Part shown: in pieces, positions 1-5,267 of the stretch
Numbering within the stretch: position 1 is the stretch's first letter
How the letters are laid out: each line of letters starts with the position of its first letter
Assembly: GCA_946407175.1 (NCBI GenBank)
Contig: CAMJNB010000120.1
Location: 1 to 5,525, forward strand
Direction: 5' to 3'
Origin: an uncultured Selenomonadales bacterium
GTDB taxonomy: Bacteria > Bacillota_C > Negativicutes > Selenomonadales > Selenomonadaceae
DNA length: 5,525 nucleotides
Program-made: the position numbers and the translations under genes
The notes under the pieces: generated by a model
What the model was told of the DNA's origin: nothing
Database searches by the model: none
What the model saw: only the letters and a program-made list of their open reading frames with translations

Positions 1-105
1 GAGGACGCCGCTTTTATCACCAACATTGCCGCAGGCGTCGTAATTTCAAAATCCGGTACCTACGCCGTGACGCGCGAAGACATTTTGAATGAATTAAAAG
101 CTTAG
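1..105 (+). CDS. C-terminal end of a PfkB-family sugar kinase, probably heptose-7-phosphate kinase (RfaE1/HldA type)
   Basis: Only the last 34 residues are inside the window; the 5' part lies upstream. The readable tail contains NIAAGVVISKSGTYAVTRED. This matches the closing segment of the PfkB fold in heptose kinases of the RfaE/HldE group, where an N-(I/L)-A-A-G-(I/V)-V-V-x-K-x-G-T pattern is usual. That family phosphorylates D-glycero-D-manno-heptose 7-phosphate in the cytoplasm to make the ADP-heptose precursor of the LPS core. The protein stops shortly after this segment. It therefore lacks the C-terminal nucleotidyltransferase domain of bifunctional HldE and would be the single-domain kinase. 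Its last codons, GCT TAG, already belong to the first AGCTTAG heptad of the following repeat. The gene lies 50 bases before def in the same direction, so co-transcription is plausible. Another PfkB-family sugar kinase cannot be excluded from so short a fragment. Confidence 0.6.
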   Translation, partial: EDAAFITNIAAGVVISKSGTYAVTREDILNELKA

Positions 106-119
106 AGCTTAGAGCTTAC
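99..119. repeat. Three tandem heptads, AGCTTAG type
   Basis: Two exact AGCTTAG units (99-105 and 106-112) are followed by AGCTTAC (113-119). The first unit supplies the last codon and stop (GCT TAG) of the kinase gene. The array fills the first part of the 50-base gap before def. It has the same period (7) and AGCT core as the arrays at 661-674 and 3703-3800. Confidence 0.8.
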
Positions 120-134
120 AGGAAACTGAAAGCT
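113..134. repeat. Small hairpin unit (AGCTTnCAG / CTGnAAGCT), copy 1
   Basis: The left arm AGCTTACAG (113-121) and right arm CTGAAAGCT (126-134) pair over 8 of 9 positions around a GAAA loop (122-125). The mismatch sits at the sixth base of the left arm. The same arm design, with the mismatch at the same place, recurs twice at 3724-3786. Here it ends about 10 bases before the def Shine-Dalgarno sequence, so it could form in the leader of def mRNA. No function is shown by the sequence. Confidence 0.6.
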
Positions 135-155
135 AACAAACGAAAGGAAATTTTA

Positions 156-626
156 ATGGCAATACTTGAAATAAAAATTGCAGGAGACCCCGTATTAAAA
201 CAACGTTGCACTGAAGTTGAAAAAATTGATAAGAGAATTAAAAGACTGCTTGACGATATGGCGGAGACTATGTACGCAAGTGAAGGCGTTGGCATTGCCG
301 CGCCGCAAGTCGGCATACCCCTTCGCGTTGTAGTTGTTGACGTCGACAAAAAGCGCTACGATTTAATTAATCCCGTCATTACCTACCGCGAAGGTTCGGT
401 TGTTGACTCGGAAGGCTGTCTGTCCTGTCCGAATCTCTACGGCGATGTTGAACGCGCAGAAAAAATCCGCGTCAAGTACACTACGCGATTTCACAAAGAA
501 AAAGAGATTGAGGCGGAAGGTCTTTTGGCGCGTTGCATTCAGCACGAACTTGACCACCTTGAAGGTCGCCTTTTTATTGAAATTGCACAGAATCTTACGC
601 GCGGAAAATTGAATAGAGATCGCTAG
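156..626 (+). CDS. def: Peptide deformylase
   Basis: The enzyme removes the formyl group from the N-terminal formyl-methionine of new proteins in the cytoplasm, the first step of N-terminal maturation. The 156-residue product is a normal length for a short type 1 deformylase. All three family motifs are present in order: GVGIAAPQVG (residues 44-53, with Gln51), EGCLSCP (86-92, with metal ligand Cys88) and QHELDHLEG (129-137, with metal ligands His130 and His134 and catalytic Glu131). The Cys at position 91 is unusual, since motif 2 normally has Val, Ile or another aliphatic residue there. The ATG is preceded by AAGGA at 144-148 with 7 bases of spacing, and the protein begins at the usual point for the family, so the start is secure. 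The last two codons and stop (GAT CGC TAG) form the first copy of a 9-base repeat. The gene follows the kinase gene after 50 bases and converges on the efflux pump gene, with 3 bases between stops. Confidence 0.97.
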   Translation: MAILEIKIAGDPVLKQRCTEVEKIDKRIKRLLDDMAETMYASEGVGIAAPQVGIPLRVVVVDVDKKRYDLINPVITYREGSVVDSEGCLSCPNLYGDVERAEKIRVKYTTRFHKEKEIEAEGLLARCIQHELDHLEGRLFIEIAQNLTRGKLNRDR

Positions 627-649
627 TTGTTAGATCGCTAGATCGCTAG
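618..649. repeat. GATCGCTAG repeat across the convergent gene ends
   Basis: GATCGCTAG occurs at 618-626, 633-641 and 641-649; the last two form an 8-base tandem. The first copy encodes the last residues and stop of def. The other two, read on the - strand, encode the last residues of the RND pump (Ser-Asp-Leu-Ala-Ile). Both convergent genes therefore end inside the same repeat. I see no stable hairpin followed by a T run on either strand, so this is not a usual intrinsic terminator. Confidence 0.8.
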
Positions 650-3600
650 TATTTGGCTCTAAGCTACAAGCTACCATTACCGGCAATACCAAAAGTGTCA
701 GCACCGTTGCCACAAGCAATCCGCTTGCTATAGCAACAGCCATCGGTTTCCAAAAACTGCTTGCCATAAGCGGGAGCATTCCGAGTATCGCCGCCGCAGC
801 AGTCAGCATTATCGGTCTGAATCTCAATACCGCCGAATCTATTATCGCGTCCCGCACCGTTTCACCGTCCGCAATATGTTTTTGTACTTGGTCAATCAAA
901 ATTACCGAATTTCTTATTATCATTCCCGACAGCGCCAAAATTCCTAAATCCGCGACAAAACCTAAGGCGGAGTTCGTCAAAAGCATTCCACATACCACGC
1001 CGATTAATCCCATTGGCGCCGTTAATAGCGTCAGCACCATTTGCGTGCCGTTGCGAAGTTGAAATATTAACAGCGTCATTATGATAAAAATCAGTGCCGG
1101 TACCGGTACGATTAAATGTTGCAGTGACTCTTGACTTTTTTCAAGTGCGCCGCCTATTTCAATACTACAGCCTATCGGCAAATCTGCGCGAATGTCCGCC
1201 GTTGCGTCGAAGGCTTTTTTTGTTGCGTCGTCCGCCGTGCCTTCAAGTACGTTTGCTTGCACCGTTATGGTCGGGAGTAAATTTCGCCGCTTGATTAAGC
1301 CGTCCTCTGCCGCGTATGAAATTTTTGCAACTTGTGACAGCGGTACGTAACCTGCCGCGCCTAAGTAAATAGGCAGGTCTTTTAACTGTGAAAGTTCAAG
1401 GCGATTACTTGAGGTCAAGCGTAAATCTATATCAATCGTCCTGTCGCCGGTATAAAACTGCGCGGCGGTCGCGCCGGTAATTTCCGTGTAAATCGTCTGC
1501 GCTACGGTTTGACTTGCAAGTCCCATAGCACGAATTTTGTCTTGGTCAAGTTCAAGCCGCATTACCTTGCTGTCCTCGTGCCAGTCTAAATTTATATTCG
1601 TAACATTGGGGTCTTCCGCAATTTTCGCCGCAACTTTTTCGGCAACCGCTTTTGTAGTCGCGATATCAAAGGCGGACACTCTAAGCATGACGGGATAATC
1701 TGAAGGCGGTCCCGTCTGAATGTAGCGCAAATTACTTTGGACGTTGGGAAAATTATCAGCCATTTCATTTTTAATTTCCGCCGCCAAAACTTCCCGCGTC
1801 GCCGTATCCTTAGCAACAATTACAAACTGCGCGTAGCTGTCACGATCTGAAATTGGATTAAGCGTCAGCACGAAACGCGGCGCACACCTGCCGACGTAGT
1901 AAGAGTAGTTGGCAATTTTATCTGCGCGTTGTGATAAAAATTTTGAAAATCTTTCGGCGTCACTTTCCGTAGCCTTGAGTGATGAACCGTTCGGCAGGTA
2001 CATATCAACAATAATTTCCGGTCGCAGTGACGGCGGGAAAAATTCTGTCATGACAAACTGCATTGCCCAAATTGACGCCGCGAAAATTAAAGCCGTCGCG
2101 ATTAACACGGTTTTTTTGTACGTCAAAAATTTTTCCAAAACTGCGCGGAAGATTTTATAAAATTTATTTTGGTACGGATCTGCCGTTTCACCTTCACCGA
2201 CTTTGACGCGGATAATGTAGTAGCCGTAAAGCGGCGCAACCATTACAGAGACAATCCAAGATAATATCAGCGCCGTTGCAATGACGGGGAAAAGTGCGCT
2301 GCAAAATTCGCTGGCAAGCCCCTTCGCAAAGGCAACCGGTATGAATCCCGCGCAGGTTATCAGCGTGCCGGTAAGCATAGGTTTAGCCGTCGCGTTGAAT
2401 GCATAACAAGCAGCATCGAATCTGTTCAGCCCGCGTTCAAGTTGCACGCTCATCATTTCCACCGCAATAATCGCGTCGTCTACCAAAAGTCCCAGTGAAA
2501 TTATCAGTGTGCCGAGTGAAACTTTGTGCAGGTCAATGCCGAAAAGGTACATAACCACAAAGACGCCTGCCAATACCAGCGGAATGCAACCGGCAACTAC
2601 CAAGCCGGTACGCAAGCCCAAACTTAAAAAGCTTACCGCCAAGACGATTACAATCGCCTCAGTCAAGGTTTTTACAAATTCGCCGATTGATTCTTCAACA
2701 ACTTGCGGTTGGTCGGAGACTTTATGAATTTCCAATCCCAGCGGTAAATTTGCCTGTTCGCGTGAAATAATTTCTGACAAGTCGTCGCCGAGCTGTAAAA
2801 TATTTCCGCCGGGCGTCATTGATACGGCAAGTCCAACGGCAGGTTCACCGTTAAAAAACATTTTCGGCGTCGCGGGGTCCACACTGCGCCTTTCAACCGT
2901 CGCAATGTCTCCGAGTCTGAAAATTTTTCCGCCGGCATTTATCGGCGCATTTTTTATTGATTCAACCGCGTCAAACTGTCCCGTAACGCGAATGAAAACT
3001 TTGTCGGAATCTGTTTCAATAAACGGCGTCGCAGTCATTTCATTTTGTTGTTGCAAAGTCACGGCGATAACCTGCGGGCTGATTCCAAGTTCGGCAAGCT
3101 TTGAACTTTCAACCTCGACATAAATTTTTTCAGCTTGTACTCCGATTAACTCAACTTTCTGCACGTCGGGCAACATTAAAATATGTTGGCGCAATTTTTC
3201 AGCGTGTTGCCTAAGTTCTTCGTAAGAATAGCCGTCACCGGTCACGGCGTAGATTGAGCCGAAAACATCGTCGAATCTGTCATTGTAAAAAGGACCGTAA
3301 ACGCCGGTAGGAAAATCTCGTTTAATGTCGTCGCAAAAATTTCTAACGTCGCGCCACGTCGGTCGAATATCTTCCTTTGCAATGTCGTCGTCAAGTTCCA
3401 CGTAAATTACGGTACGTCCCGCCCAAGTTTCGCTGGTAACTCTCTTAAGGTGCGGCACGTCTTGAATTTTTTTCTCAAGCTTATCGGTAACTTGATTCTG
3501 CATTTCTTCAGCCGTCGAGCCTAACCATACGGCGCTGACAACCATTTGGCGAATGGTGAAGGCTGGGTCTTCCATACGTCCGAGTTTAGTGTAGGCAAAG

Positions 3601-3680
3601 ACGCCGCCGATAGCCGTAACGATTATGAAGTACCAAACCAAGACGCGGTTGTTAAGTGAAAGTTCAGTTAAATTTTTAAT
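630..3680 (-). CDS. RND-family efflux pump, inner-membrane permease (AcrB-like)
   Basis: This is the proton-driven inner-membrane part of a tripartite exporter, moving drugs or other amphiphiles from periplasm or membrane toward an outer-membrane channel. The 1016-residue product matches the usual length of about 1000-1050. It has the family plan: TM1 (about 15-31), a large periplasmic domain with GRMEDPAFTIR (34-44), TM2-TM6 (about 340-489), TM7 (523-544), a second periplasmic domain beginning near FFPPSLRPE, and TM8-TM12 (about 856-1004). TM4 carries the paired Asp401-Asp402 that match AcrB Asp407/Asp408. TM10 reads GMIIRNSVILID, with Arg923 about where AcrB has Lys940. The start is taken as ATT (3680-3678), 7 bases after a GAGGA Shine-Dalgarno; this gives the expected N-terminus KNLTELSLNNRVLVWYF. 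A TTG at 3641 would drop 13 family-typical residues and has no ribosome site. The last 12 residues come from repeat DNA. The gene follows the adaptor gene after 121 bases of repeat. The substrate cannot be told. Confidence 0.95.
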   Translation of the reverse strand: MKNLTELSLNNRVLVWYFIIVTAIGGVFAYTKLGRMEDPAFTIRQMVVSAVWLGSTAEEMQNQVTDKLEKKIQDVPHLKRVTSETWAGRTVIYVELDDDIAKEDIRPTWRDVRNFCDDIKRDFPTGVYGPFYNDRFDDVFGSIYAVTGDGYSYEELRQHAEKLRQHILMLPDVQKVELIGVQAEKIYVEVESSKLAELGISPQVIAVTLQQQNEMTATPFIETDSDKVFIRVTGQFDAVESIKNAPINAGGKIFRLGDIATVERRSVDPATPKMFFNGEPAVGLAVSMTPGGNILQLGDDLSEIISREQANLPLGLEIHKVSDQPQVVEESIGEFVKTLTEAIVIVLAVSFLSLGLRTGLVVAGCIPLVLAGVFVVMYLFGIDLHKVSLGTLIISLGLLVDDAIIAVEMMSVQLERGLNRFDAACYAFNATAKPMLTGTLITCAGFIPVAFAKGLASEFCSALFPVIATALILSWIVSVMVAPLYGYYIIRVKVGEGETADPYQNKFYKIFRAVLEKFLTYKKTVLIATALIFAASIWAMQFVMTEFFPPSLRPEIIVDMYLPNGSSLKATESDAERFSKFLSQRADKIANYSYYVGRCAPRFVLTLNPISDRDSYAQFVIVAKDTATREVLAAEIKNEMADNFPNVQSNLRYIQTGPPSDYPVMLRVSAFDIATTKAVAEKVAAKIAEDPNVTNINLDWHEDSKVMRLELDQDKIRAMGLASQTVAQTIYTEITGATAAQFYTGDRTIDIDLRLTSSNRLELSQLKDLPIYLGAAGYVPLSQVAKISYAAEDGLIKRRNLLPTITVQANVLEGTADDATKKAFDATADIRADLPIGCSIEIGGALEKSQESLQHLIVPVPALIFIIMTLLIFQLRNGTQMVLTLLTAPMGLIGVVCGMLLTNSALGFVADLGILALSGMIIRNSVILIDQVQKHIADGETVRDAIIDSAVLRFRPIMLTAAAAILGMLPLMASSFWKPMAVAIASGLLVATVLTLLVLPVMVACSLEPNTSDLAI
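661..674. repeat. Tandem AAGCTAC heptads inside the 3' end of the RND gene
   Basis: Two exact AAGCTAC units sit side by side. On the coding (-) strand they read GTAGCTT twice and encode part of Val-Ala-Cys-Ser-Leu, just after the last membrane segment. The same period-7, AGCT-centred words fill the intergenic gaps, so repeat DNA has entered or been captured by this coding region. Confidence 0.7.
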
Positions 3681-3687
3681 ACTACAT

Positions 3688-3692
3688 TCCTC
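3688..3692 (-). promoter_or_regulatory. Shine-Dalgarno site GAGGA that supports an ATT start
   Basis: On the - strand GAGGA (3692-3688) is followed by a 7-base spacer ATGTAGT and then ATT AAA AAT in the pump frame. No in-frame ATG, GTG or TTG lies at a suitable distance. The only ATG near the site directly abuts GAGGA and is followed at once by TAG. This leaves ATT at 3680 as the best-placed start. Confidence 0.6.
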
Positions 3693-3702
3693 ATTTTTAA
3701 TT

Positions 3703-3815
3703 AGCTTTCAGCTTTTAGCTTTTAGCTTTCAGGACTTCTGCAAGCTAGTAGCTTTTAGCTGTCAGCTTTCAGGACTTCTGCAAGCTGCAAGCTGTAAGCT
3801 TTTAATTCTTAATTC
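3703..3815. repeat. Heptad repeat array filling the adaptor-pump gap
   Basis: Almost the whole 121-base gap is built of 7-base words. There are four tandem AGCTTTC/AGCTTTT units (3703-3730) and three more of the type AGCTTTT, AGCTGTC, AGCTTTC (3750-3770). GCAAGCT then occurs twice, followed by GTAAGCT (3780-3800), and TTAATTC occurs twice (3802-3815). The last pair overlaps the adaptor's final codons and its TAA stop. Because AGCT is its own reverse complement, any two units could pair in RNA. The - strand operon transcript must cross this array between its two genes. Confidence 0.85.
3724..3786. repeat. 23-base direct repeat; each copy is a small hairpin (copies 2 and 3)
   Basis: The segments 3724-3746 and 3764-3786 are identical over 23 bases and start 40 bases apart. 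Each folds into arms AGCTTTCAG and CTGCAAGCT around a GACTT loop, pairing 8 of 9 positions with one mismatch at the sixth base. This is the design seen at 113-134. The 17 bases between the copies are themselves mostly heptads. Confidence 0.75.
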
Positions 3816-4860
3816 TAACTTCTTCTCCTTCGCGCAGTTTATGAACTCCCGCAGTTACAACTTTGTCATGAGGCGAAATGCCACGTACCAAAACTTCATT
3901 GCCACTGAAATTTTCAACCGTGACATTTTTCAGCGCAACTTTATTTTCATTCGTGACAATCCAAACCTTCGCGGTATCGTCGGTTTGATAAATTGCTGAC
4001 AGCGGCAAAATTACGGCGCCGGTATTTTCAGCGGCGGCATTTAAAATTACTTCCGCAGTCATACCGAGTTGAATATTAGGCGGCGGATTTGTAAGCGAAA
4101 GTCTTACGCGGTACGTCCGCGCGGCACTGTCAGCCATAGGCGCAATTTCACGAACTACGCCTTGTGTCCTGCTGTTCACCGCCCAAAATGTCACGTCCGC
4201 AATTTTGCCGATTGAAATATTTTTTAAATGATTTTCCGGCACGTCGATTTCAACTTCCAATTCATTTGTCTGCACCAAAGTTAAAACCGTTTGTCCTGCC
4301 GATACGACTTGCCCAATCTCCGCGTTTACGGCAGAAATTACACCGTCGGCATTGGCGGTAAGTTTAGTGTAGTTTAAAACATTTCGCGCCTGTTCAGCCT
4401 GTGCGACTGCGGCATTGTAAGCGGCAACGGCATTGTCATAAGCGGCTTGATATTGGTCAAGCGTGGCGGCGGCAACGGCATTTTCTTTGTACAACGCGGC
4501 GTAACGCTCTAAGTTGGATTTCGCCAAATTTAATTGCGAGCGGCAGAGTTCAACCTGCGATTCACCGGCGTTAAGCTGTTGCACGGCGTCTCTTGCGTCG
4601 ATAATCATAAGCACCTGCCCCGCGCTTACGAAACTGCCTTTTTCCACGTCACGTGAAATTATTCTGCCGCCGGTTTGAAAAGCCAAATTTGATTCGTACC
4701 TGCCCTTCACAATGGCGGGGTAAACGTCCGAAACAATTTTATCGGCTTGACTTGCCGTCACGGTTTTTACCATTGGCAAAGGTGGCGGTTCAACTTTTTT
4801 TTCGCTACAGCCCGCAATTAAAAGCGTCGACAAAATCAGCAGGCTACAAAGTTTTTTCAA
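3802..4860 (-). CDS. RND efflux periplasmic adaptor (membrane fusion protein), lipoprotein
   Basis: This protein would bridge the RND pump to an outer-membrane channel from the periplasmic side. With a TTG start at 4860 it has 352 residues, normal for the HlyD/AcrA-type adaptor family. A basic n-region (KK) and hydrophobic stretch lead to the lipobox LIAGC with Cys18, so the mature protein is probably lipid-anchored. Domain order is first lipoyl half (about 61-88, GGRIISRDVEKGSFVSAGQ), an Ala/Gln-rich coiled-coil hairpin (about 91-160), second lipoyl half (about 166-196, GVISAVNAEIGQVVSAGQ), a beta-barrel (about 199-275) and a membrane-proximal domain to the end. The TTG is preferred because GGAG lies 9 bases before it and it gives a textbook lipoprotein signal. 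An ATG at 4887 would add 9 residues but has no ribosome site at a usable distance. It is the first gene of the - strand operon, followed by the pump gene after 121 bases. The stop lies inside TTAATTC heptads. Confidence 0.92.
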   Translation of the reverse strand: MKKLCSLLILSTLLIAGCSEKKVEPPPLPMVKTVTASQADKIVSDVYPAIVKGRYESNLAFQTGGRIISRDVEKGSFVSAGQVLMIIDARDAVQQLNAGESQVELCRSQLNLAKSNLERYAALYKENAVAAATLDQYQAAYDNAVAAYNAAVAQAEQARNVLNYTKLTANADGVISAVNAEIGQVVSAGQTVLTLVQTNELEVEIDVPENHLKNISIGKIADVTFWAVNSRTQGVVREIAPMADSAARTYRVRLSLTNPPPNIQLGMTAEVILNAAAENTGAVILPLSAIYQTDDTAKVWIVTNENKVALKNVTVENFSGNEVLVRGISPHDKVVTAGVHKLREGEEVRIKN

Positions 4861-4869
4861 AAATTTCAA

Positions 4870-4873
4870 CTCC
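4870..4873 (-). promoter_or_regulatory. Shine-Dalgarno site GGAG that favours the TTG start of the adaptor
   Basis: GGAG on the - strand (4873-4870) is followed by a 9-base spacer and then TTG AAA AAA. It lies downstream of the alternative ATG at 4887, so it cannot serve that codon. This decides for TTG at 4860. Confidence 0.6.
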
Positions 4874-4950
4874 AATATGGTAAGCATTGAGTGGCGGTAT
4901 GGACTAACTCCAAAGACGTTGCAATTTACGTAAAAGCCGCAGTTAGCTGA

Positions 4951-5045
4951 GGCGCGCAAGGACGCGCGCCCGTCCGCACCATGAGCGTGACGCGAATGTT
5001 GCGGACATGTTTTCTTTGTTACTTTCTTTTGCGCCAAAAGAAAGT
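4951..5045. repeat. GC-rich element of three consecutive perfect stem-loops
   Basis: There are three exact inverted repeats in a row. GGCGCGC (4951-4957) pairs with 4964-4970 around a 6-base loop. GTCCGCA (4972-4978) pairs with TGCGGAC (5000-5006) around a 21-base loop that itself contains GCGT-G-ACGC. The 11-base arm at 5021-5031 (ACTTTCTTTTG) pairs with 5035-5045 around a CGC loop. The left half is much richer in GC than the flanks. No run of T follows any stem on either strand, so it is not a standard terminator. It would be part of the adaptor's leader RNA if transcription starts near 5140. It resembles a dispersed extragenic repeat, but only one copy is in the window. Confidence 0.6.
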
Positions 5046-5101
5046 TAATCCTAAAAAACTCAGCACTTTATGAAAATTGGAATTAGTCAACACGTCCGGT
5101 A

Positions 5102-5125
5102 AGTAGTGAATAGTATATCACTACT
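5102..5125. promoter_or_regulatory. 8-base inverted repeat, possible operator
   Basis: AGTAGTGA (5102-5109) and TCACTACT (5118-5125) are exact inverted arms around an 8-base centre. The site lies about 15-40 bases downstream of the transcription start expected from the promoter at 5148-5156, where a dimeric repressor could block it. Its centre contains a second - strand extended -10 look-alike (TGATATACT, 5120-5112). Against an operator, the same bases can be read as tandem heptads of TAGTGAG type, so this may simply be another repeat array. Confidence 0.4.
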
Positions 5126-5147
5126 CACTAAAAATTTTTCCCGCCAA

Positions 5148-5156
5148 ATTATAACA
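5148..5156 (-). promoter_or_regulatory. Extended -10 promoter for the adaptor-pump operon
   Basis: On the - strand the bases read TGTTATAAT, a perfect TATAAT with an upstream TGn extension. The hexamer 17 bases upstream (GGAATT) does not resemble TTGACA, which is tolerable for an extended -10 promoter. Transcription would begin near 5140 and give a leader of about 280 bases before the adaptor's TTG, containing the inverted repeat and the three stem-loops. Confidence 0.45.
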
Positions 5157-5168
5157 TAGAATTAAAAA

Positions 5169-5203
5169 TTAATTCCTAATCCTTAATCTCTAATCCCTAT
5201 TCC
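5169..5203. repeat. Five tandem degenerate heptads, consensus YTAATYC
   Basis: Five units in register start at 5169, 5176, 5183, 5190 and 5197. Units 2 and 4 are both CTAATCC, and the first is TTAATTC, the same word that overlaps the adaptor's stop at 3802-3815. The array lies between the likely - strand promoter and the + strand gene. Confidence 0.75.
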
Positions 5204-5267
5204 CTAAAATAAAAAAACGTTGTAAAATACCATATCATTTTTTGCAAAAAATTTTTCGGAGGCAGTG

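Follow-up and report, generated by a model that had tools for sequence, protein, structure and literature searches.

Short tandem arrays of seven-base units (heptads) occupy gaps between genes in a stretch of 5,525 nucleotides (nt; hereafter, the window) from an uncultured Selenomonadales bacterium (contig CAMJNB010000120.1 of assembly GCA_946407175.1). The window holds, from left to right, the end of one gene, a peptide deformylase gene, genes of an RND efflux pump and of a membrane-fusion adaptor, and the start of a further gene (Table 1). Its deformylase is closest to those of rumen Selenomonadaceae metagenome-assembled genomes, with 95% amino acid (aa) identity to locus L001 (goat rumen RGIG3739) and 75% to that of Quinella sp. 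1Q5 (L007), in keeping with an original prediction, made from the letters of the window, that the host is not a cyanobacterium. Genomes and loci are designated below by G and L numbers, respectively (G001 is the genome of L001, G002 of L002, G005 of L007 (Quinella 1Q5), G006 of L012, G007 of L016 and G008 of L017). Genes were taken as uncurated open reading frames (ORFs) with a minimum length of 80 aa (90 aa for the counts of perfect runs, including the coding vs. non-coding counts in G008), so that gap edges are approximate.

Heptad arrays in the window

The repeat stretches named by the original prediction are real. Matches at a lag of 7 nt amount to 13/14 at 99-119, 7/7 at 661-674, 19/21 at 3703-3730, 11/14 at 3750-3770, 13/14 at 3780-3800, 7/7 at 3802-3815, 21/28 at 5169-5203 and 6/7 at 5117-5130; the stretch at 633-649, described there as an 8-base relative, indeed has period 8, with 9/9 matches at lag 8 and 0/10 at lag 7. 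Tandem Repeats Finder (TRF) returned period-7 rows at 99-118, 3703-3732, 3778-3800, 3802-3824 and 5170-5207, along with one period-8 row (617-649) and a repeat of 40 nt spanning 3710-3804. The four gaps of the window (delimited by hand; array-finder threshold of 9) hold six arrays at lag 7, one at lag 8, two at lag 14 (harmonics) and none at lags 4-6 and 9-13, as compared with a mean of 0.03 lag-7 arrays (maximum 1) over 1,000 dinucleotide shuffles of the same gaps. The pairs at 661-674 and 5117-5130 fall under the threshold, and neither would stand alone.

Some of these arrays overlap gene ends and provide the stop codon, and inverted pairs are found among them at 113-134, 3703-3800 and 5104-5130. 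Folded as DNA, the surrounding segments 90-150 (-8.8 kcal/mol, z -3.66) and 5098-5136 (-5.8 kcal/mol, z -4.47) are equaled by none of 200 shuffles each, and segment 3695-3805 (-21.7 kcal/mol, z -2.54) by two of 200, while segment 612-680 folds no better than shuffles (z +0.58) and segment 5155-5215 not clearly better (z -1.82).

Table 1. Heptad arrays and genes of the window, with the basis of each assignment
Feature	Position	Strand	Basis
AGCTTAG x3 array across the upstream gene's 3' end, with the TAG stop of that gene (103-105) inside	99..121	+	lag-7 score 13.5, TRF
Inverted pair AGCTTACAG / CTGAAAGCT	113..134	.	DNA fold of 90-150
Period-8 array AGATCGCT, adjoining the deformylase stop codon	631..649	+	TRF and lag scan
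AAGCTAC x2, sub-threshold alone	661..674	+	7/7 at lag 7
AGCTTTY array, left arm of an inverted heptad structure	3703..3732	+	score 18.0
Second AGCTTTY array, within the 40-nt duplication	3743..3772	+	score 10.5; 40-nt repeat 3710-3804
GCAAGCT array, right arm, pairing with AGCTTTY words with mismatches	3778..3800	+	score 13.5
TTAATTC array overlapping the adaptor gene 3' end and providing the stop codon of that gene	3802..3823	+	score 10.0; ORF end at 3802
Inverted pair TAGTGAATAGT / ACTACTCACTA	5104..5130	.	DNA fold of 5098-5136
CTAATCC-type array, C-rich in the sense of the downstream gene	5170..5206	+	score 15.0
Gene end, 34 aa, without Pfam match	upstream end of window	+	profile search
Peptide deformylase gene	156..626	+	PF01327, E 6.5e-52
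RND efflux pump gene	633..3641	-	PF00873, E 2.7e-153
Membrane-fusion (HlyD-type) adaptor gene, start codon provisional	3805..4869	-	PF16576, E 3.3e-24
Start of gene without Pfam match	right end of window		profile search

Distribution, vocabularies and word replacement

The heptad arrays, imperfect tandem copies of a word, form part of a population of short intergenic elements across most of one genus. Perfect lag-7 runs of at least 10 in non-coding DNA were found in the window and in six of the 19 loci L001-L019 (L001, L005, L012, L016, L017 and L019), with none in the other 13 and none in the 61 loci L020-L080. A 400-kb sample of G008 has 171 gaps of 30 nt or more, of which 53 contain a lag-7 array (shuffle mean 0.3, maximum 1 of 20), as compared with 0-3 gaps at each of the control lags 4-6 and 8-13; in the same genome, 33 perfect lag-7 runs lie in 28.6 kb of non-coding DNA vs. 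six in 371 kb of coding DNA. Lag-7 arrays were likewise present in 37/98 gaps of G174, 24/96 of G155, 24/89 of G142, 8/75 of G129, 7/14 of G001 (ten unselected contigs) and 12/86 of G007 (shuffles 1.4) vs. 0/31 of G005, i.e., in seven of the eight sampled genomes. For G001, G005, G007, G129 and G174 the first ten contigs by number were used, and ten more G001 contigs, picked for AGCTT matches, were excluded from these rates; the values for G008, G142 and G155 may run high because long contigs, mostly with pattern matches, were sampled. Outgroup loci, mostly Selenomonadaceae, had lag-7 arrays in 0/157 gaps and other loci in 2/181 (the two sets being L024-L048 plus L052, and L050-L080 minus L052, with L020-L023 and L049 in neither). 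Since L001, L002 and L016 appear to come from three separate metagenome projects, an artifact of a single assembler is unlikely. These counts support, in close relatives, the predicted genome-wide process, its bias to non-coding DNA and the enrichment of period 7 above shuffles; the outcome named in advance as refuting the prediction, period 7 not enriched in other regions or no commoner than in shuffles, did not arise.

Pattern searches gave a broader, coarser picture. Three consecutive AGCTTNN units occur in four of nine genomes (31 matches in G001, 16 in G002, 5 in G006 and 72 in G008; control 0), and CTARTYC x3 is present in 20 of 151 genomes of the family. By hand tally, at least 10 matches to TAGNNNN x4 were found in 43/66 genomes of the genus vs. 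0/123 others in the family (maximum there 7), with any match at all in 70/189 genomes. Within the genus, G174, G162, G164, G001, G008 and G142 are rich in arrays, and by this tally G005, G004, G158 and G171 are nearly free of them. The reversed control also reached at least 10 in G001 (32), G155 (18), G160 (15), G165 (65) and G174 (47), where other period-7 words would match it.

The original prediction held that words differ between arrays and that the period stays at 7; the variety of words stood, and the constancy of the period did so for the most part only. G007 has lag-8 arrays in 19/86 gaps, as well as lag 12 in five and lag 11 in three. Period-8 arrays were observed at L249-L258 and L163 (all G007), at L152 (G163) and at window positions 631-649; the junction at the deformylase gene (def) of G007 has a period-8 inverted pair, and G163 has CGATCYAT words after def. 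Thus, the period itself can change.

As to the words, 179 distinct canonical heptads were counted in 146 array-bearing gaps of five genomes. A comparison of word use between genomes, suggested with the original prediction, revealed that each of the five has its own heptad vocabulary: the array closest to a given one in word content belongs to the same genome at a fraction of 0.75 vs. 0.25 permuted (maximum 0.39 of 2,000 permutations). Adjacent units differ at 0.75-1.27 positions, as compared with 1.35-2.19 for units of the same family from other arrays (four genomes).

At orthologous junctions, words get replaced while period and layout persist. Upstream of the deformylase gene, the window has AGCTTAG; in L001 of G001, whose flanks are 93% identical, GGATTAA precedes CACTCYT, and other genomes have TTAGCTT (G174), AGAATTA-type words (G002 and G164) or an inverted combination of AATTAGG and CTAGTCC (G129), with many of the 31 compared loci free of arrays. 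The adaptor-pump junction, site of the main arrays of the window, carries GAGTGAR words in G001 (where the contig ends), AATTGTT/AATTAAG in G174 and AATTAGG with ACTACTC in G164; in G163 and G166 (L304 and L303) it has no array, and the adaptor stop and pump start overlap. The acquisition of an array may have introduced a gap between the coupled adaptor and pump genes. Three further junctions (A-C) were compared in up to 21 genomes, with missing flanks removing four of 20 at A and two at C. Judged by eye, junction A of G008 has a heptad hairpin in 17/17 genomes with aligned flanks, built of AGTGRTT, GGGACAA, GGGACTA, GGAACTA or GGGAAAA words, and junction C is occupied in 10/19. Some words are retained, with several species sharing AGTGRTT (junction A) and AATTAGG (junction B).

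The persistence of the junction A hairpin raises the question of transcribed RNA hairpins (terminators, attenuators or mRNA stabilizers) kept for their structure as words change. At single sites such RNA-level selection looks likely: in G008 junction A folds as DNA at z -6.36, and T-runs follow the hairpin in several junction A cases. It failed the strand test across all tandem gaps, in which transcript-sense hairpins of array-bearing gaps show 256 G.U vs. 316 A.C (p 0.014, nominally opposite to RNA selection), as compared with 328 G.U vs. 205 A.C (p 1e-7) in tandem gaps without arrays of the same genomes. Among individual genomes, G142 (41:21, significant) favors RNA selection, G174 (60:113) and G007 (45:68) run contrary to it and G008 (80:82) is neutral. 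The count of T-runs, which revealed no asymmetry for array hairpins as a class, shows little for other hairpins either and is therefore a weak test. Altogether, maintenance as RNA structure appears improbable.

Layout, polarity and turnover of heptad hairpins

Across six genomes, 86 of the 165 array-bearing gaps hold a single detected array. Neighboring arrays form 91 pairs, of which 52 are clearly inverted, 8 direct and 31 ambiguous, and they follow a preferred order, with the G-rich/TAG arm 5' and the C-rich/CTA arm 3' on either strand (+-). Assigned by words, the pairs are 68 +-, 3 -+, 12 ++ and 7 --; assigned by base content alone, they are 62, 2, 8 and 4, respectively, with three having one neutral arm. 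The word lists behind the former count (and behind the unit similarities given above) were analyst-chosen, and the base-content count repeats the polarity without them. The +- order is found in all three types of gaps (tandem, convergent and divergent). Among the 52 inverted pairs, G outnumbers C in the outer 5' arm for 100 of the 102 arms showing a difference (100 vs. 2), and the 12 pairs with AGCT words, which are not purine-rich, share this polarity (22/22 arms, 22:0).

The excess of G could recall the G-quadruplexes that have been suggested for G-rich heptamers in Xanthomonas and Nostoc. The AGCT-word pairs, with the same polarity, and the rarity of the motif (four G3 runs in 21/266 arrays, any GGG in 100/266) speak against quadruplexes as an explanation, which we consider extremely improbable, and together they indicate that polarity is independent of quadruplexes.

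Single arrays show the polarity near gene 3' ends (40:15) and not near starts (17:15). Of 141 gene ends that have an array no more than 60 nt away, 61 have their stop codon within it. Arrays occur in 119/347 tandem, 26/86 convergent and 20/95 divergent gaps. Stop codons were considered and rejected as the sole cause of polarity: their outward-5' excess is 62:17 but 7:7 in AGCT-type pairs, and the excess of G over C, unlike that of stop codons, holds in both AGCT-type and other pairs.

Fixed polarity and genome-specific vocabularies would both be expected of putative binding sites, for which a DNA- or RNA-binding factor of each genome would read the heptads and the vocabulary would drift with its specificity. 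When genomes are pooled, the complementarity of an arm is also slightly higher with its own partner than with other arms (mean rank 0.59, p 0.0045, n=77; not significant per genome, p 0.1-0.67), a weak sign of arm co-evolution; mutual templating of the two arms, considered on these figures, was not retained. This possibility has to contend with several unrelated words within one genome, with junctions of the same operon that are empty in some species and with the use of all three types of gaps, and we regard it as unlikely.

Whole hairpins can be present in one genome and absent from its close relative. Comparable orthologous gaps number 14 in G142 and G188, whose median flank identity is 96%; six of the gaps have arrays in G142 and three of these also in G188. 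At site 1, G142 has a 64-nt hairpin vs. a plain site in G188 (flanks ~97%), G170, G095, G155, G152 and G144; because the plain site is of equal length in these six genomes, the hairpin is a gain. In some other genomes the sequence at site 1 is longer or unrelated, G157 and L203 carrying arrays of their own. The hairpin has TTA on both flanks, which may be due to chance, and has 56 matches in G142, partial ones reaching 95-97% over 37-41 nt among the 40 of 162 candidates scored. Two further hairpins are present in G142 only (length differences of 47 and 61 nt), with altered flanks.

These cases bear directly on local slippage alone, by which a polymerase with a preference for 7-nt slippage would grow seeds at junctions, and shared words would reflect sequence preference and common descent. 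The close likeness of adjacent units fits this idea, as does junction B, with lengths of 95 in G095 and 88 in G170 (a 7-nt difference); a polymerase footprint has been invoked for heptamers, as cited in PMC4692102. Slippage does not readily produce a whole 64-nt hairpin at a plain site, shared arrays that differ by 9 and 12 nt, period 8 in G007, genome vocabularies, a fixed polarity or the near absence of arrays from outgroup loci. As the full account, it is fairly unlikely.

Several side observations concern neighboring features. On the minus strand at window positions 3641-3690, ahead of its listed ORF, the pump gene has an apparent non-canonical start codon; the start is canonical in five of the six relatives compared, and the sixth (G002) resembles the window. 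A dispersed palindromic element akin to miniature inverted-repeat transposable elements (MITE-like) is represented at L001 4-96, where the copy begins TAGGGCGTGTTGA, at L136 8066-8273 and at L240, L247 and L248 (G142), copies of which have a CTTTTCTTTTG...CAAAAGAAAAG-type core; window positions ~4893-5097 hold a diverged relative. Matches to its end pattern number 149 in G007, 41 in G001, 10 in G142, 8 in G174, 3 in G155, 1 in G008 and 0 in G005 and G129. A CRISPR-like (clustered regularly interspaced short palindromic repeats) array with repeat ATTTCAATCCACGCACCCCGTGAAGGGTGCGAC lies at ~526-1900 of L280 (G174), among gaps that match themselves.

Possible origin and comparison with known systems

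Two candidate causes were assessed by profile searches across 66 genomes of the genus. The inverted extragenic doublets resemble doublets of repetitive extragenic palindromic (REP) sequences as described in PMC3116915, which raises the possibility of mobile hairpins (REPIN-like elements) moved by a REP-associated tyrosine transposase. The Y1 transposase domain occurs in seven of the 66 genomes (six over the cut-off), including the array-bearing G007, G164, G121, G180 and G079, all over it. It was not found in the array-rich draft genomes G001, G008, G142, G155, G162 and G174, so that the REP transposase was rejected as the agent, and REPs are conserved in sequence, which heptad arrays are not; this origin is thus very unlikely. 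Loss of DNA repair is arguable for the array-rich drafts G001 and G164, in which matches to MutS1 and SbcD are below the cut-off, but not for the genus, with MutS1 over the cut-off in 57/66 and SbcD in 63/66 genomes (including G008, G142, G155, G129 and G174).

The phenomenon as such is firm. For its mechanism we infer, with confidence somewhat short of even, DNA-level hairpins with heptad arms that are gained and lost whole and later remodeled, and whose polarity is partly filtered at gene 3' ends. The elements would arise at gene junctions via a DNA-level event, such as templated insertion or hairpin-primed synthesis, and would subsequently change in length and word through slippage and short-tract exchange. 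They would persist at gene 3' ends, where harm is presumably least, and part of the polarity would reflect a filter acting there. The search for an agent making new hairpins, which covered the REP transposase and repair loss in the 66 genomes, was negative.

A number of observations weigh against this interpretation. In divergent gaps the polarity is +- in five or seven pairs, depending on the count, and -+ in none, which a filter at 3' ends does not explain. Sharing of 32-mers between sites is in excess in G008 (17 vs. a Markov null mean of 2.2, maximum 10) and in deficit in G174 (2 vs. 7.9), and general copy-paste between sites was rejected accordingly. The G142/G188 comparison rests on 14 gaps and six arrays, its three presence/absence cases are one-directional, and only site 1 among them has outgroups showing a gain. 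The arrays shared by these two genomes differ by 0, 9 and 12 nt, not in sevens, and two of the eight array-free gaps also differ, by 28 and 63 nt, so that large indels are not special to arrays. A near-identical donor for the gained hairpin was not seen among the 40 of 162 G142 candidates scored (best full-length match 86%), and no consistent target duplication was found, with a possible TTA repeat at site 1 only.

A bolder proposal, which we put forward as rather doubtful, is that a generator produces new inverted heptad hairpins at gene junctions rather than copying any one existing element, thereby spreading a genome-specific vocabulary over many sites, and that the heptamers of Xanthomonas and Nostoc are traces of the same or a convergent process fixed on one word. 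Polarized inverted pairs, genome vocabularies, word replacement, presence or absence of whole hairpins and the possibility of period 8 all go beyond the original prediction. In these genomes words vary freely, whereas period, inverted layout and polarity are kept, and array turnover is quick enough for a comparison of neighboring species. Free words and fast turnover render the explanations separable: quadruplex and RNA structure lose ground, and a known transposase is mostly missing. The mechanism thereby becomes testable through strain comparison.

Among known systems, the short tandemly repeated repetitive (STRR) heptanucleotides of filamentous cyanobacteria share period 7, several words and an intergenic location; the phylum differs, the relatives of the window being rumen Selenomonadaceae. 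We found no report of heptanucleotides in Selenomonas or of intergenic tandem repeats in Selenomonadaceae in a search limited to non-subscription papers, and a term search of the Quinella genome paper (PMC9585023) gave no occurrence of the words intergenic, tandem or heptanucleotide. The TAACTGA repeat of Beggiatoaceae (PMC4679880) is, like the present arrays, a heptamer found mostly between genes, with some 170 sets of 2-6 copies each; it differs in being a single word repeated directly (one inverted case in the 170 sets), for the most part in one orientation and ahead of a start codon. REP doublets and REPINs (PMC3116915) are likewise dispersed extragenic inverted doublets with predicted hairpins; their arms are not heptad arrays, and their sequence is conserved and linked to a transposase that most genomes analyzed here are without.

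The closest known system is that of the heptamer arrays of Xanthomonas (GGGAATC) and Nostoc PCC 7120 (GGGGA(C/T)T), described in PMC4692102. Bacterial heptamer arrays are characterized there as over-represented G-rich words of a role not known, varying in length and sequence between related genomes. Common to both systems are period 7, heterogeneous units and a dispersed intergenic location, as well as polarity, with the G-rich strand after ORF ends, and convergent pairs as in Xanthomonas (70 and 75 cases of two heptamer sites in convergent orientation). Nostoc has few inverted pairs, whereas neighboring arrays are mostly inverted here. The work on Xanthomonas and Nostoc traced one G-rich, quadruplex-forming word type per genome; the genomes analyzed here have many types, mostly without a quadruplex motif, and, unlike in that account, a vocabulary that differs per genome and whole hairpins that are present or absent.

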